Positions 4,297 to 26,713 of a stretch of DNA of 32,382 nucleotides are shown here, piece by piece. A program made the translations under genes and the position numbers. Source of the DNA: an uncultured Atopobiaceae bacterium. GTDB lineage: Bacteria > Actinomycetota > Coriobacteriia > Coriobacteriales > Atopobiaceae. The stretch is from contig CANQFP010000010.1 in assembly GCA_947599965.1 (NCBI GenBank), positions 1-32,382 of the forward strand, in the 5' to 3' direction. Each line of letters opens with the position of its first letter. Within the stretch, counting starts at the first letter, position 1. A model generated the notes under the pieces. The model saw only the letters and a program-made list of their open reading frames with translations, was not told where the DNA came from and did no database searches.

Positions 4297-6066
4297 ATGG
4301 CGAACGAGAACGTGAACCGGGGCGAACGGGCGCTCTTCAGGGAGGACGGTCGACCGAAGACCCCAGCCGAGCTCGCCGCCGACGCGGCGGCCGAGAAGCT
4401 CGCGTGGTGGCAGAGGACCATCGTCTACGAGTGCTACCCCAAGAGCTTCCAAGACACGCGGGGCAAGGGCACGGGCACGCTCCGCGGCGTCATCGAGCAC
4501 CTCGATTATCTGCAGCGTCTCGGCATCGGCGCCCTCTGGCTCACGCCGATCTACCCCTCGCCCATGAAGGACAACGGCTACGACGTGGCCGACTACTGCG
4601 CCATCAACCCCGAGTTCGGCACGATGGAGGACATGGAGGAGCTCATCGCCGAGGCGGGCGAGCGCGACATCCGCCTCGTCATGGACCTCGTGCTCAACCA
4701 CACCTCCGACGAGCACCCGTGGTTCATCGAGAGCTCCTCGAGCCGTGAGAACCCGAAGGCGGAGTGGTACATCTGGGCCGATCCGAAGCCGGACGGCTCG
4801 GCGCCCACGAACTGGCGCTCCTGCTTCGGCGGCTCGGCGTGGACCTGGTGCGAGGCGCGCGGGCAGTACTACCTCCACACCTTCGGCAGCTACCAGCCCG
4901 ATCTCAACTGGGAGTGCCCGGAGGTGCGCCACGCCATGCACGACGTCGCGCGCTTCTGGCTCGCCAAGGGCGTGGGCGGCTTCCGCATCGACGCGGTCAT
5001 CTACCTGAAGAAACCCGAGTTCGTGGACGCCGAGGTGGACGACCTCGACATGCTCGGCAACATCCACGACATGACGGCCAACCGGCCGGGCATCATGGAC
5101 TTCCTCCGGGAGTTCCACGACGAGGTCATGGCGGGCACGGACGCCTTCACCGTGGGCGAGGCCTCGAGCGCGACGCCGGAGACGCTTCGCGACTGGGTGG
5201 GGCCGAACGGCGTCTTCGACATCATCATCGAGTACAGCCACATCAACGTGATCCGCGGGAAGACCCCGCACTGGTACGAGCGGCCGGGCTGGAAGCTCAC
5301 CGACCTCACCGACGTGATCACCCGCGTGCAGGCGAACACGGCAGAGGAGGGCTGGTGCAGCGTCTACTTCGAGAACCACGACCAGCCGCGCTCACCCAAC
5401 CACTTCTTCCCGCACTGCCGAGACTACGAGGCGGAGGCGAAGCTCCTCGGCCTCGTGCTCCTCACCATGCGCGGCACGCCCTTCATCTACCAGGGCGAGG
5501 AGCTCGCCATGACCAACATCCGCCTGCCCTCGATCGACGACTACTTCGACCCCGAGGTGAAGAACCAATACCGGCAGGCGCTCGACCACGGCTTCACGCC
5601 CGAGCGCGCCCTCGAGCTCTGCGGCGAATACTCCCGCGATAACGCGCGCTCGCCCATGCAGTGGACGGACGGACCGAACGCCGGCTTCACCACGGGTGTG
5701 CCCTGGCTGCCGGTGAACCCGAACTACCCGGAGGTGAACGCGAAGGTGGAGGGCGAGAGCGCCGCCTCCGTGCTCAGCTGGTTCAGGCACCTGGCCTACC
5801 TGCGCAATCGCTTCCCGCTGCTCCTGGCGGGCGCGTATCGCGAGCTCCTTCGCGGAGAGGGGGGCGTCTACGCCTTCGAGCGCACGCTGGAGGGGCTCCG
5901 CGCCGTGGTGCTCGCGAACTTCACGGACGAACCGAAGGCCTACGACCCCGCGCTCGTCGCCGGTCTGGCGCCGCACACCTCGTCGAGGGGGGCGCCCGAG
6001 AGCGTTTCCGCGGGGGAGCTCCGGCCGCTCGAGGCCGTCTTCTACGTGACGCCGGAGCTCATCTAG
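4297..6066 (+). CDS. GH13 alpha-glucosidase (oligo-1,6-glucosidase / trehalose or sucrose hydrolase type)
   Basis: A 589-residue cytoplasmic enzyme with no signal peptide. All GH13 regions are present: region I DLVLNHTS, region V QPDLNWE, region II GGFRIDAV with nucleophile Asp232, region III FTVGEASS with acid/base Glu288, and region IV FENHDQPR with Asp362. The opening (WWQRTIVYECYPKSFQD) and length match the oligo-1,6-glucosidase, alpha-glucosidase, trehalose-6-phosphate hydrolase and sucrose hydrolase group, which cleaves non-reducing alpha-glucosyl ends of short sugars. Substrate cannot be assigned: no PTS or ABC sugar transporter and no regulator adjoin it. The N-terminal 35 residues (charged, Ala-rich) are an extra extension. 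It is a single-gene unit with its own promoter and palindromic operator candidate. Confidence 0.92.
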   Translation: MANENVNRGERALFREDGRPKTPAELAADAAAEKLAWWQRTIVYECYPKSFQDTRGKGTGTLRGVIEHLDYLQRLGIGALWLTPIYPSPMKDNGYDVADYCAINPEFGTMEDMEELIAEAGERDIRLVMDLVLNHTSDEHPWFIESSSSRENPKAEWYIWADPKPDGSAPTNWRSCFGGSAWTWCEARGQYYLHTFGSYQPDLNWECPEVRHAMHDVARFWLAKGVGGFRIDAVIYLKKPEFVDAEVDDLDMLGNIHDMTANRPGIMDFLREFHDEVMAGTDAFTVGEASSATPETLRDWVGPNGVFDIIIEYSHINVIRGKTPHWYERPGWKLTDLTDVITRVQANTAEEGWCSVYFENHDQPRSPNHFFPHCRDYEAEAKLLGLVLLTMRGTPFIYQGEELAMTNIRLPSIDDYFDPEVKNQYRQALDHGFTPERALELCGEYSRDNARSPMQWTDGPNAGFTTGVPWLPVNPNYPEVNAKVEGESAASVLSWFRHLAYLRNRFPLLLAGAYRELLRGEGGVYAFERTLEGLRAVVLANFTDEPKAYDPALVAGLAPHTSSRGAPESVSAGELRPLEAVFYVTPELI

Positions 6067-20420: not shown

Positions 20421-23021
20421 CTAACGCTCGGTCAATCCGCTTTCGAGCAGGTCTTCGATGAAGCCGGCGGCGTAGGCGGAGAAGACCACCTCGCCGGCTT
20501 CCTGGGTGGCGTCGAGATCGATGGTGGCGAGGATCTGGAAGTCGTGGTCGCCGGCCTCGTCCGCGACGATCTGGCGAACCTTCCACCTGTGCGTGGCGAG
20601 CTCCGGGGCCTCGTCGAGCTCGAAGTGGGCCGCGGAGCGCGCGTCGGCGTCCGTGCCCACGAGCTCATGGGCATCGTAGTAGGCGTCGAGGAGCTCGCGC
20701 CAGCGCGCCCGACCGAAACCCATGGCGCCGTCGAGTTCCCCCAGGGCCTCGGCGTCGTCTGCCGCCATGGCGAGCACGCGCCTGAAGAGCGCGTTTCTCA
20801 CCTGCACCTCGAGCCCGTGCCTATCGACGTGGAGGACGGCATCCGCCGCGGGCGGCGCCACCTCCTCCTCGCCGGCCGCCGCCCAGGCGTCCACGAGGGA
20901 GCTGTCCGTCGTGCGCACCACGTAGCCGAGCCACGCGATGATGTCGGCCAGGCGCTCGTCGACGTAGGCGTCGGGCACCGAGCGCGAGAGCAGGTGGTAG
21001 GCGTTGGAGAGGTAGCGAAGGAGGATGCCCTCGGCTCGGGCGATGCCGAGGGCGCCGATGTAGGCCCGAAAGCCCATGGCGCCCTCCACCATGGCCCTGA
21101 GCACGCTCTTCGGGCTCGGCTCGACGTCGCGCGCCCACGGCACGCGCACGCAGTAGATCTCGTAGGCGCTTCGGATGAGCTCCTCGAGCGGCTTCGGCCA
21201 GCTGATCTCGGCCACGCGCTCCTTGCGCTCGTCGACGTCGACACCCTCGGCGCGAAGCTCGGCCCAGGCGGCGTCGCGCGCCTTGCGCTCCTGGGCGCGA
21301 AGCACCTGGCGCGGGTCCTCGAGCACGGCCTCGGCGAGCGAGATCACGTCGAGGGCGTAGGTGGGGCTCTCGGGCTCGAGGAGGTCGAGCGCCGCGATGA
21401 AGAAGGGCGAGAGCGGTTCGTCCAAGGAGAAGTCCTCGGGCAGGTCGATGGTGAGCTCGTAGCGCTCGTCTCCGGCTTCGTCCTCGCTCGCCACGACGAC
21501 GCCGGTGTCGATGAGGGTGAGGAGGATCTCGCGGGCGCGGGCTCGCTGCGTCTCCTTCGCCTCCTCGGAGATGGCGGCGCCGTCGATGAGCGCGAGGATC
21601 GATTCCCAGGCGTCTCCGCCGCGCGCCACGAGGGAGAGCACCATCGCGTGGGAGATCTGGAACTGCGCGACGAGCGTTTCCGGCGCCTTGGCCACGAGGT
21701 TCTCGAAGGTCTTCTCGCTCCAGCCGACGAAGCCCTTGGGCGGCTGCTTCTTACGCAGCTTGCGGGCCCTCTTCGGATCGCCGCCCGCCTTCTGCCGCTG
21801 GCGTTCGTTCTCGATCTCGTGCTCGGGCGCCTGGGCGATGACGACGCCCTCCACGTCGAATCCGGCGCGCCCGGCGCGCCCCGCGATCTGGTGGAACTCG
21901 CGGGCCGAGAGGCGGCGCACGCGCGTGCCGTCGAACTTGGAGAGCGCCGTGAGGAGCACGGTGTGGATGGGCACGTTGATGCCGACGCCGAGGGTGTCGG
22001 TGCCGCAGATGACCTCGAGGAGGCCCTGCTGGGCGAGGCGCTCCACGAGGAGCCGGTAGCGCGGCAGCATGCCCGCGTGGTGGACGCCGACGCCCGCCTG
22101 CAGGAGGCGCTGGAGGGTCTTCCCGAAGGGGGTGGTGAAGCGCGTGCCCTTCATGGCCTCGCGCACGCCGTCTCGCCGCTCCTTCCCCGCCACGCCGAAG
22201 CTCGCCAGGGCCTGGGCGCTCGCGAGCGCCGCGTCTTGGGAGAAATGCACGATGTAGAGGGGGCCCTCGTCGCGTTTGAGCGAGAGCTCCACCGCCGCCT
22301 CGAGGGGCTGCAGCGAGTAGCGGTAGGCGAGCGGCACCGGCCGCGGCGCGTCCTCGATGCGATCGACGGGTCGGCCGCCTCGCTCCTCGAGGGCCTCCGC
22401 GATGGCGCTCACGTCGCCGAGCGTGGCGCTCATGAGCAGGAACTGCGCATGCGGCATCTCGATGAGCGGCACCTGCCAGGCCCACCCGCGCTCGGGGTCG
22501 CCGTAGTAGTGGAACTCGTCCATGACCACGCAGTCGACGCCGCAGCCCTCGCCCTCGCGAAGCGCCCGGTTGGCGAGGATCTCCGCCGTGCAGCAGATGA
22601 CGGGCGCATCGGCGTTGATGGAGGCGTCGCCGGTGAGCATGCCCACGTTGTCGCGGCCGAGGACGTCGACGAAGTCGAAGAACTTCTCCGAGACGAGTGC
22701 CTTGATGGGCGCGGTGTAGTAGCACGTGCGTCCGGTGGCGATGGCCATGAAGGCGAGCCCGAGGCCCACGAGGCTCTTCCCGCTGCCGGTGGGGGTGCCG
22801 AGGATCACGGAATCGCCCGCGGCGAGGTCCATGAGGGCGTCTTCCTGATGCGGCCAGAGCTCGAAGCCGCGCTCGAGGGTCCACTCGAGGTACGTCTCGA
22901 ACGCCTCGTCGGGCACGAGGAGCTCCCCCTCGCCCGTCTTGGCCCAAGGGAGCTTGTAGCCGAGTGAGCCGTAGGCGAAGGCGTCGTCTGCGAGCTGCTC
23001 CGTGTGTTCCGCTTCATCCAT
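20421..23021 (-). CDS. Ski2/Mtr4-like DEAD/DEAH-box helicase (DUF3516 type)
   Basis: An 866-residue superfamily 2 helicase. RecA-1: Walker A GTPTGSGKS (75-83), TAPIKAL (Ia), DEFH box (168-171), SAT (198-200). RecA-2: GVHHAGMLP, TDTLGVGIN, QIAGRAGR (378-385). A Lys/Arg-rich segment (about 400-420, RKLRKKQPPKG) and a ~440-residue helical C-terminal region follow, the arrangement of actinobacterial DUF3516 helicases, which resemble Ski2-like RNA helicases. A role in RNA turnover or ribosome maturation is likely but unproven. There is no good ribosome site; the ATG lies six bases after a -10-like TAGACT, so the mRNA may be leaderless. Immediately upstream is the nine-copy repeat region. Confidence 0.92.
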   Translation of the reverse strand: MDEAEHTEQLADDAFAYGSLGYKLPWAKTGEGELLVPDEAFETYLEWTLERGFELWPHQEDALMDLAAGDSVILGTPTGSGKSLVGLGLAFMAIATGRTCYYTAPIKALVSEKFFDFVDVLGRDNVGMLTGDASINADAPVICCTAEILANRALREGEGCGVDCVVMDEFHYYGDPERGWAWQVPLIEMPHAQFLLMSATLGDVSAIAEALEERGGRPVDRIEDAPRPVPLAYRYSLQPLEAAVELSLKRDEGPLYIVHFSQDAALASAQALASFGVAGKERRDGVREAMKGTRFTTPFGKTLQRLLQAGVGVHHAGMLPRYRLLVERLAQQGLLEVICGTDTLGVGINVPIHTVLLTALSKFDGTRVRRLSAREFHQIAGRAGRAGFDVEGVVIAQAPEHEIENERQRQKAGGDPKRARKLRKKQPPKGFVGWSEKTFENLVAKAPETLVAQFQISHAMVLSLVARGGDAWESILALIDGAAISEEAKETQRARAREILLTLIDTGVVVASEDEAGDERYELTIDLPEDFSLDEPLSPFFIAALDLLEPESPTYALDVISLAEAVLEDPRQVLRAQERKARDAAWAELRAEGVDVDERKERVAEISWPKPLEELIRSAYEIYCVRVPWARDVEPSPKSVLRAMVEGAMGFRAYIGALGIARAEGILLRYLSNAYHLLSRSVPDAYVDERLADIIAWLGYVVRTTDSSLVDAWAAAGEEEVAPPAADAVLHVDRHGLEVQVRNALFRRVLAMAADDAEALGELDGAMGFGRARWRELLDAYYDAHELVGTDADARSAAHFELDEAPELATHRWKVRQIVADEAGDHDFQILATIDLDATQEAGEVVFSAYAAGFIEDLLESGLTER

Positions 23022-23027
23022 GACGAA

Positions 23028-23033
23028 AGTCTA
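23028..23033 (-). promoter_or_regulatory. -10 box placing the helicase start at its ATG (leaderless candidate)
   Basis: Minus-strand TAGACT (plus AGTCTA 23028-23033) is six bases from the ATG at 23021. With usual -10 to +1 spacing, transcription would begin at or next to the A of ATG. No Shine-Dalgarno sequence is seen in those six bases (TTCGTC). The -35 is unclear. Confidence 0.4.
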
Positions 23034-23050
23034 CGCCCGGCAGGCCTCTC

Positions 23051-23354
23051 TGGCGCCTAGCCGCTTCCGCCGCCTGCCACACACTTTTTCTTTCGCACTC
23101 CACCTGTCGCGTAACCGCTTCCGCCGCCTGATGCTGTCGCGTAGGCGCTTGGGCCGTGTCACGTAGGCGCTTCTGCCTGTGTATGTGGCACGTAGGCCTT
23201 TCCGCCTGTGCTCGATTCAGCGAAATCGACCCGATTCGGGCGGCGCAAGCCTCTACGCGGCCGGTTTCGGGCGGCCGAAGGCGCTACGTGCCAGATTCCA
23301 ACACGGCGTAAGGACCTACGTGCCATCAGCACAGGCACAAGGCTCTATGCGGCA
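23051..23354. repeat. Nine-copy ~21-bp repeat cluster in two opposing orientations
   Basis: Five plus-strand copies start at 23051, 23105, 23135, 23157 and 23186. Four minus-strand copies occupy 23242-23262, 23273-23293, 23305-23325 and 23334-23354. All align without gaps. The consensus begins TGNCRCGTAG, has TT at positions 15-16 and ends GCC at 19-21. Positions 2, 4, 6, 8, 9, 15, 16, 19, 20 and 21 are identical in all nine. Several copies continue into CTGTG or CGCCCGAA. Centre spacings are about 54, 30, 22, 29, 56, 31, 32 and 29 bases, close to whole helical turns. The block lies in the 481-base gene-free gap (23022-23502) upstream of the helicase. Small ORFs across it are not convincing. 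Confidence 0.85.
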
Positions 23355-23406
23355 GGAACGGCGGCATCGAGGAAGATGCGCGAGGGTTCGCTGGCGAGCG
23401 TCGGGC

Positions 23407-23437
23407 GCGGCGCGGCACCCTCAAACTGCCGCGCCGC
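23407..23437 (-). terminator. 11-bp hairpin downstream of corA
   Basis: 23407-23417 pairs perfectly with 23427-23437 (core GGCGCGGCA/TGCCGCGCC) around a nine-base loop. It lies about 65-95 bases after the corA stop in the direction of transcription, behind the 54-bp element. No U-run is visible, as is common in GC-rich actinobacteria. Confidence 0.45.
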
Positions 23438-23438
23438 C

Positions 23439-23492
23439 GCAGCCTCCGCGAGCACTCCCCATCCCTTCACAAGCCTGTTAAGGGGCGGAGCG
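23439..23492 (-). repeat. 54-bp palindromic element, copy A
   Basis: Read on the minus strand, this matches 26660-26713 at 49 of 54 positions without gaps; the first 38 bases differ at one position. It begins 11 bases after the corA stop. The core CTCCGCCCCTTAACA, loop GGCT, TGTGAAGGGATGGGGAG folds into an imperfect hairpin, so either orientation gives a stem-loop. Confidence 0.85.
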
Positions 23493-23502
23493 ACGGGCCG
23501 GC

Positions 23503-24651
23503 TCAGAACCACTTCTTGTGCTTGAAGAAGAGGATCTCGCCGACGACGACGGCGACGGAGATGGCGATCACGTAGTAGTACGAACCGTCCCAGTGGAGCA
23601 CGGGCATGACGTCGAAGTTCATGCCGAACCAGCCGGTGATGAGCGTGAGCGGCATGAAGATCACGGTCACGACCGTGAGGATCGACATCACCTTGTTCTG
23701 TCGCACGTCGATCTTGCTCTGGAAGAGGCCGCGAAGCTGGAGGGCAAATTCTCGCAGCTCGAGGGTGTCGGCCGCCATGTGGCGCGAGGAGTCGGCGAGC
23801 ACGCCGAAGAGCGCACGGTCGTCGGCGTTGAGGATCTGCGTGCGCGAGGTGGAGAGCGTCTGAGCCATGTCGGCGTATTGGCGGTAGAAGTTGTAGAGCT
23901 CTCCGAGGAGGCGGCGCTCGCGGGTGATGAAGAGGTCGAAGTCGTGCGGGATCTCCGTCACGTCCTCGCCCATGTGGTCTTCGAGGCGCTCGAGCCGCGT
24001 CTCCTCGTCCGAAAGGAACATGAGTCCGTCGTCCACGAGGAACTCGAGGATCTCGAAGAGCGCGGTGCCGCCGGTGTCCTTTCGAAAGCTCTGGTTCTTC
24101 ACGTACTCGTTCACGAGCACGACGAACTCGGGATCGTCGGTGCCGAAGACGAGCCGCTCGGTGTCGAGGTAGAAGTGCGCCTCCACGTCGCGGTAGGCGC
24201 CAGGGAGGTGCGGCGCGAGCGCGTTCGGGGGAAACCCCAGCGTACCGGCCACGCAGGTTTGGAAGGCGTAGGCGCGGCAGTGGCCGACGGGCACGTCCTC
24301 GGGGTCGCGATTGCCGTCATCTGCGAGGTGCGCCGCGATGGGAGCGATGAGGGAGAACTCCGCCTCGGGCACGACGCTCACGTAGCAAAAGGTCGGCGCG
24401 ACCTCGCTGCCGTCCGCGGCAAGGGGTGGCTCGAAGAGCGCGAGGAGATCGGCCGTGCGCTCGCTCGCCTCATCCGCTACCTCGGCCTTCATGGGCTCGA
24501 GCATGCGCGCCTCGTCGAGGCGAAACTCCCTCGGAAGGCCCTCCGCGCGTTCCTCGATCTCAGCTACCCACGCCGCGCGCGCCGCTTCCTCGTCCTTGGG
24601 ATCCGCGTCCTTGATGCCTCGCCAGAAGTCGCCCTCGCGCTCGCTTGCCAT
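23503..24651 (-). CDS. corA: CorA-type magnesium/divalent cation channel
   Basis: A 382-residue CorA-family protein: a large acidic cytoplasmic N-terminal domain with a long helical stalk (about 200-315, ending LFQSKIDVRQNKVMSIL) and two C-terminal TM helices. The pore signature GMN is at residues 343-345 (GWFGMNFDVMP), and the chain ends in the basic tail FFKHKKWF as in other CorA proteins. CorA forms a pentamer that conducts Mg2+ (or Co2+/Ni2+) inward and closes when cytoplasmic Mg2+ is high. The start ATG lies 15 bases after the lipase-like gene stop, so they probably share a transcript; its ribosome site is weak. The 54-bp palindromic element and a hairpin follow the stop. Confidence 0.93.
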   Translation of the reverse strand: MASEREGDFWRGIKDADPKDEEAARAAWVAEIEERAEGLPREFRLDEARMLEPMKAEVADEASERTADLLALFEPPLAADGSEVAPTFCYVSVVPEAEFSLIAPIAAHLADDGNRDPEDVPVGHCRAYAFQTCVAGTLGFPPNALAPHLPGAYRDVEAHFYLDTERLVFGTDDPEFVVLVNEYVKNQSFRKDTGGTALFEILEFLVDDGLMFLSDEETRLERLEDHMGEDVTEIPHDFDLFITRERRLLGELYNFYRQYADMAQTLSTSRTQILNADDRALFGVLADSSRHMAADTLELREFALQLRGLFQSKIDVRQNKVMSILTVVTVIFMPLTLITGWFGMNFDVMPVLHWDGSYYYVIAISVAVVVGEILFFKHKKWF

Positions 24652-25765: not shown

Positions 25766-26674
25766 GTGACCACGGACACTTCGACAGATCGCTACGGCTA
25801 CGTCGCCCACATGAATTGGCGATCGGTGGTCGTGCCCACCGGGATCGCCTGCCTCGTGGCGAGTTTCTCGGCCGCGAGCTTCCTCATGCTCGTGCCGGCC
25901 ATGGAGACCTCGGATGCCCAGGTGCTCGCCACCGGGCTCGACCAGCTCGTGAAGGCGGAGAGCGATTCGGCTCTCGACCTCAACTTCGGCGACTCGCACA
26001 TCCTCGCCTCGCTCGCCTTCGTGGCACTCGTGGCCATCGGGCTCATCATCCTCTCCTACGCCCGCAACGACCGCATCGCCTACATGGAGGCCTTCCCGCA
26101 CATCAACCTCTCCTTCACAAAGGAGCAGATGGCTGAGAGCATCGCCGTGCGGAAGCGCTGCACCGCACTCGCCGTCCTCGTCTACCTCGTGGCGGCGGGG
26201 CTCTTCACCCTCTTCAAGCTGTTCGGGCTCTCGCACCTCGCCACCGGCTGCGCCTTCGCCCTCGGCGCCCTCGGTACGTGGGTGGTCGTCCACGGCGGCA
26301 TGCGCGCCAAGCGCGAGGATCTCTTCGCCTACAACTTCGAGGCGCTGAAGCACTCCTCCTTCTACGAGCTGAACGCCGAGGCCAAGGCCCAGAACCGCGA
26401 GTGGATGCTCATGGCCAAGCGCCACTCGATGCTCGCCCAGAGCGTCGACAGCGTGATCCTCACCATCGGCGCGTTCGGCTCGCTCGCCCTCTACGCGCTG
26501 CCCTCGCTCGCCACGCCCTACTACTGGGTGGCCATCGCCGCATCCGGCGTCATCGCCATGCTGAACACGCACGCCGCCATGGAGAAGACGCGCCGGCTCT
26601 CCGTCATCGACGGCGACGTCTACCGCGTGGCCGAGAGCGCGAACGACGAGGCGCCAGAGCGCTCCGCCCCTTAG
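25766..26674 (+). CDS. Six-TM membrane protein of unknown function (paralogue of 816-1850)
   Basis: A 302-residue protein with GTG start (GGGAG five bases upstream). Hydrophobic segments lie near 24-44, 79-96, 131-150, 155-175, 225-243 and 250-268, the same pattern as the protein at 816-1850. Shared blocks are AYMEAFPHINLSFTKEQ after TM2 and YNFEALKHSSFYEL ... AKRHSMLAQSV before TM5. The acidic C-terminal tail of its paralogue is replaced by a short one. The strictly kept loops suggest a cytoplasmic functional surface. The last codons and stop lie within copy B of the 54-bp element, so the C-terminus ERSAP is encoded by the repeat. Function unknown. Confidence 0.8.
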   Translation: MTTDTSTDRYGYVAHMNWRSVVVPTGIACLVASFSAASFLMLVPAMETSDAQVLATGLDQLVKAESDSALDLNFGDSHILASLAFVALVAIGLIILSYARNDRIAYMEAFPHINLSFTKEQMAESIAVRKRCTALAVLVYLVAAGLFTLFKLFGLSHLATGCAFALGALGTWVVVHGGMRAKREDLFAYNFEALKHSSFYELNAEAKAQNREWMLMAKRHSMLAQSVDSVILTIGAFGSLALYALPSLATPYYWVAIAASGVIAMLNTHAAMEKTRRLSVIDGDVYRVAESANDEAPERSAP

Positions 26675-26713
26675 CAGGCTTGTGAAGGGATGGGGAGCAT
26701 TCGCCGAGGCTGC
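26660..26713 (+). repeat. 54-bp palindromic element, copy B
   Basis: It matches copy A (23439-23492, opposite strand) at 49 of 54 positions. It starts inside the final codons of the membrane-protein gene and supplies its TAG stop (26672-26674). The stem-loop core is preserved, differing at one loop-proximal base. It runs up to the promoter region of the UPF0210 gene. Confidence 0.85.

Follow-up and report, generated by a model that had tools for sequence, protein, structure and literature searches.

REP/BIME elements with RAYT transposases are short, abundant, intergenic repeats in inverted clusters; they contain GTAG, are absent from some orthologous gaps, and BIMEs bind host DNA proteins. 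Each REP unit is a GT(A/G)G head plus a palindrome, accompanied by a RAYT gene (PMC2817692). Iteron origins and iteron-type partition sites of plasmids are asymmetric direct repeats of about 20-22 bp, spaced in whole helical turns and bound cooperatively by a protein. The multi-site ends of transposons such as Tn7 (TnsB) and Mu (MuA) have several oriented sites of about 22 bp per end, with the two ends facing each other and unlike on the left and the right. Neisserial and other intergenic mosaic repeats and MITEs are dispersed composite repeats with empty orthologous sites. Here I describe a dispersed family of arrays of a 21-bp motif in a group of uncultured rabbit-gut bacteria of the Atopobiaceae, which shares some properties with each of these systems.

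The resemblance to REP/BIME is superficial: GTAG lies inside the motif, the unit is not palindromic, the orientation is converging rather than alternating, and the spacing is in helical turns. The arrays would work most like iterons, but there are two opposed arms and many arrays per chromosome beside housekeeping genes. A Pfam scan of 29 proteins from array loci revealed no Rep or Par family. Compared with the ends of Tn7 and Mu, there is no cargo, the outer edge is variable while the centre is conserved, up to 11 sites occur per arm, and most carriers have no rve-type transposase. Compared with mosaic repeats and MITEs, no terminal inverted repeat plus target duplication was detected, though at the two loci compared unalignable sequence hides the ends, and the 10.5-bp spacing is not, to my knowledge, a feature of these repeats. 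A CRISPR array can be excluded, since the copies diverge, occur in both orientations, and have spacers of 0-12 bp or 19 bp and more. No match to an Rfam family was found for the array at the gathering score or at E <= 1. In the papers searched, which are only part of the literature, nothing was found for such repeats in Atopobiaceae, Olsenella or Coriobacteria.

The nine-copy array and its dispersed relatives

The window is the whole 32,382-bp stretch analysed, contig C10 of a draft genome (G000; 1.43 Mb, 96 contigs, 96% complete). As shown in the table, the array lies in the 481-bp gap between a helicase gene and a corA-like gene. The closest named relatives of the helicase are from uncultured Atopobiaceae MAGs of the 'Lapin' set (84% identical). 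The observation of nine gap-free copies, five forward and four reverse, with ten invariant positions of 21, was confirmed. The invariant positions are 2, 4, 6, 8, 9, 15, 16, 19, 20 and 21. The start-to-start spacings are 54, 30, 22, 29, 56 (across the centre), 31, 32 and 29. Thus, the clustering of spacings at about 22, 30 and 55 stated in the original prediction holds, while the centre of symmetry is nearer 23224, the middle of the centre gap, than the proposed 23220. A weight matrix, trained on copies that include these, scores above 14 bits at only these nine places in the window and once in 1.0 Mb of other actinobacterial DNA.

Features of the array and of other segments in the window
Position	Strand	Feature	Remark
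23051-23071	+	copy 1, forward arm, outermost	TGGCGCCTAGCCGCTTCCGCC
23105-23125	+	copy 2, forward arm	54 bp (5 turns) from copy 1; no convincing hidden site between
23135-23155	+	copy 3, forward arm
23157-23177	+	copy 4, forward arm	abuts copy 3 at 22 bp (2 turns)
23186-23206	+	copy 5, forward arm, innermost
23207-23241		centre gap between the facing arms	GC-rich with short inverted repeats (TCGATT...AATCGA); same 56-bp step in the arrays of contigs C29, C37 and C91
23242-23262	-	copy 6, reverse arm, innermost
23273-23293	-	copy 7, reverse arm	best match to the matrix in the window (31.2 bits)
23305-23325	-	copy 8, reverse arm
23334-23354	-	copy 9, reverse arm, outermost
23355-23440		right-hand extension	shared with the C37, C49 and partly C29 arrays and C90; ends in a GC-rich palindrome (GGCGCGGCA...TGCCGCGCC)
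20421-23021	-	DEAD/Ski2-like helicase gene with DUF3516	start codon 30 bp from the array; not part of the element
23503-24651	-	CorA-like transporter gene	not part of the element
23439-23492 and 26660-26713 (-)		54-bp segment downstream of corA, repeated elsewhere in the window	91% identity
16299-16418		FMN riboswitch	Rfam RF00050, 102.8 bits

Is the motif found elsewhere in the genome and in related genomes? This search had been suggested in advance. The pattern TGNCRCGTAGNNNNTTNNGCC hits G000 23 times, while its reversed control gives 0 hits. In G000, arrays lie on contigs C10, C24 (two), C29, C37, C42, C49 (cut by the contig end) and C91, and a single copy lies at the end of C62. In 106 kb of own DNA, 53 of 55 hits lie in arrays, and one of the other two is at a contig end. 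The congeneric genomes G001, G003 and G004 carry 43-67 exact hits each of a 19-bp core pattern (controls 0-2), G005 has two arrays of the type called C-type here, and G002 has none. Thus, five of six sampled species of one uncultured genus carry the arrays, and G002 is a viable member of the genus without the motif. In a sequence-model search of 400 genomes of the class, more than two hits were found only in G000, G001, G003 and G005; G004, which was found separately, was not drawn in this sample. The other 396 genomes, including the sixth species, show no arrays, and other genera have 0-2 hits each at E <= 0.05, near chance. No blastn match was found in plasmid and phage collections, and viral contigs gave three records with one or two hits and no array. 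A plasmid or phage origin was therefore rejected.

Orientation, spacing and conservation

I collected 52 arrays with 473 copies. All 46 two-sided arrays face inward, with the TG end outermost and the GCCG end toward the centre, and the six others show one arm only, several of them cut by contig ends. Neighbouring copies on the same strand are spaced at 22-24, 28-34, 40-43, 51-54, 62-65, 72-74, 82-84 or 105-108 bp and nowhere between. The 27 distinct spacings peak at a period of 10.5 bp with phase zero (cos 0.58), and none of 100,000 random sets did as well. Since the arrays share ancestry, the spacings are not fully independent and this overstates the significance. The centre gaps take the values 33-35, 44, 56, 66-68 and 77, again in single-turn steps. 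The 52-54 bp gaps hide no decayed site apart from one weak exception, so five turns is a real spacing, while the 51-bp gaps hold a weakened site at +22.

In the five homologous G000 arrays (C10, C37, C29, C91 and C49; 82-88% identical), core motif positions differ at 6.4%, spacers at 14.9% and free motif positions at 36% of compared sites. The high change at free positions may result from conversion between copies. The four complete arrays align over 224 columns without a gap. Six C-type arrays from three species keep the same architecture over 230 bp, but in this group the core positions are not better conserved than the spacers (13.5% vs 14.6%), a point against uniform selection. Homologous arrays show no length change at up to ~18% divergence. 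Among 402 distinct copies, only neighbouring or near positions within the unit are correlated, with no distant base-pair partners, so the unit is an asymmetric double-stranded site and not a hairpin.

Orthologous gaps differ between species. Absence from the syntenic gap of close relatives together with chance frequency had been named as grounds for refutation; the array is in fact absent upstream of the same helicase in every relative checked, but the frequency is far above chance, so that the refutation fails on its second half. The gap after groEL is empty in G005, filled by a long array in G001 and by a different short array in G003. The gap near SAICAR synthetase is filled in G003 and lacks the insertion in G005 and G001. 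At these two loci, 18-26 bp of unalignable sequence hides the ends, so the filled/empty comparison leaves it undecided whether terminal inverted repeats and target-site duplications exist. In contrast, a C-type array is kept beside the same RelB/RelE-like toxin-antitoxin pair (named from sequence, not searched) in G000 and G001 and beside the RelB-like gene in G005. A cluster of short Nif11-like peptides (MNEKVTKFYEIVSADDALQAEL...) also lies near the C-type arrays of loci L118, L119 and L162. The arrays have been copied around the genome as whole segments of ~220-400 bp, and arms have grown by tandem duplication of 51-bp and 93-bp modules. Two related arrays have exchanged flanks between G001 (loci L131 and L132) and G004 (loci L136 and L137), which is consistent with recombination between arrays or with a draft-assembly join.

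The neighbouring genes are unrelated, and the gap orientations of 24 classified arrays are unremarkable (14 tandem, 5 divergent and 5 convergent). An uncharacterised protein family of ~370-430 aa (49% identical) lies between arrays in both G001 and G004 (L128:3286-4518 and L135:5514-6809) and has no Pfam match, while the other neighbours differ. A second dispersed intergenic repeat family, with units of about 110-120 bp and very many hits in G001 and G003, was seen adjacent to an array (L122:7870-8190, on G003 contig C36) and has not been identified. An association of the arrays with a gene family was rejected. Terminator or promoter consensus hits were not found in 22950-23560 of the window, and a terminator or promoter role was rejected. 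Because the array is absent at the helicase gene in relatives, a role specific to this gene is not supported.

A proposed binding-site array and its alternatives

The interpretation in the original prediction, an array of protein-binding sites or a genome-wide intergenic repeat family, is supported, and both alternatives hold together: the family is genome-wide and has the signature of protein-binding sites, with a motif more conserved than the spacers in the G000 group, helical spacing and fixed orientation. Its further statement that selection rather than recent duplication explains the motif is partly right, since segments and modules have also been duplicated. It is most likely (probability roughly 0.6) that the asymmetric ~21-22 bp sites (TGNCRCGTAGNNNYYTNNGCCG), set on one face of the helix in two arms that point at a common centre, are bound cooperatively by a genus-specific, sequence-specific protein that has not yet been identified. 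Since multiples of 10.5 bp within the arms and across the centre mean a fixed rotational relation, the bound protein could contact its neighbours and form one wrapped or looped nucleoprotein body. Such bodies at several intergenic places would act in chromosome architecture, segregation or insulation rather than in control of one neighbouring gene, since the arrays lie between unrelated housekeeping genes in tandem, divergent and convergent gaps. The analysis itself establishes the motif, the orientation and 10.5-bp rules, core conservation in the G000 group, genus restriction and presence/absence polymorphism, whereas the binding of a protein, the wrapping or looping and the architectural role are inferences. 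The spacing fits a helically phased protein-binding array, but no binding data exist. Pfam scans of the neighbouring genes gave no candidate for the protein, and a phyletic-profile search for it was not run. No single site is essential, since the helicase, groEL and SAICAR-synthetase gaps lack the array in some relatives. It is possible, though unlikely, that the arrays are a new class of dispersed architectural element, folded into discrete bodies that give the bacterium several chromosome anchoring or segregation points.

A non-autonomous selfish element (MITE- or REPIN-like), whose 21-bp sites are recognition sites of a transposase and whose inward orientation reflects two transposon ends brought together, is an unlikely alternative. 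It may explain the dispersed homologous copies, the empty orthologous sites in G005 and G001, the oriented asymmetric sites with TG outermost and the different architectures of the left and right arms. However, rve-type transposases (PF00665), the class of Tn7, Mu, IS21 and IS3, are absent from G000, G001, G004 and G005, four of the five carriers, and a Tn7/Mu/IS21-type MITE was rejected for this reason. Y1 transposases (PF01797) are absent from G000 and G003; other transposase classes, including other DDE classes, were not tested. The conserved part is the centre while the outer ends vary in copy number, the reverse of a transposon, and some arrays are kept at orthologous loci in G000, G001 and G005. 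G004 (L146, contig C7) and G001 (L147, contig C30) have single Y1 transposase genes, but these are flanked by clusters of a different, palindromic repeat ACAGTGGGGACGGACCTTTTGTCTT (see also L013, about 2880-2960, and L014, about 5240-5330) and show no 21-bp motif. This RAYT/REP-like pair is distinct from the 21-bp family, and its repeat is also present in G003 and G005. A RAYT/REP origin of the arrays was rejected on unit structure and on the absence of a Y1 transposase in G000 and G003. A known REP family, which had been named beforehand as a reading that would refute the proposal, is thus excluded as far as tested.

A transcribed RNA element, in which the converging arms form a long imperfect hairpin that stabilises or terminates mRNAs, is less likely still. 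Both strands of the block fold better than shuffled sequences (z -4.0 and -2.6), as any inverted repeat would, and consensus pairing extends over 73 pairs in four arrays. In contrast, only 1 of the 73 pairs shows a two-sided change, several are broken, and opposite sites are out of register. Spacing of 10.5 bp is a property of double-stranded B-DNA, and a hairpin does not explain the arrays between divergent genes. Non-functional repeats spread by replication slippage and recombination, with the motif preserved only by recency and gene conversion, would account for the tandem modules and the variable free positions, but are the least likely, since neutral duplication explains neither the multiples of 10.5 bp, nor the invariable inward orientation, nor the absence of length changes at ~16-18% divergence.

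If a protein binds these arrays, they are a natural and modular series, with 3 to 19 sites and centre gaps increasing by single turns, for reading how an oligomeric DNA-binding protein uses helical phase and orientation to build a complex. Since the family is confined to one genus and varies between species at the same gaps, its function, spread and loss can be compared directly. It would also add a repeat type with non-palindromic units and strict converging orientation to the catalogue of bacterial intergenic repeats, which is dominated by palindromic REP/BIME and MITE types.
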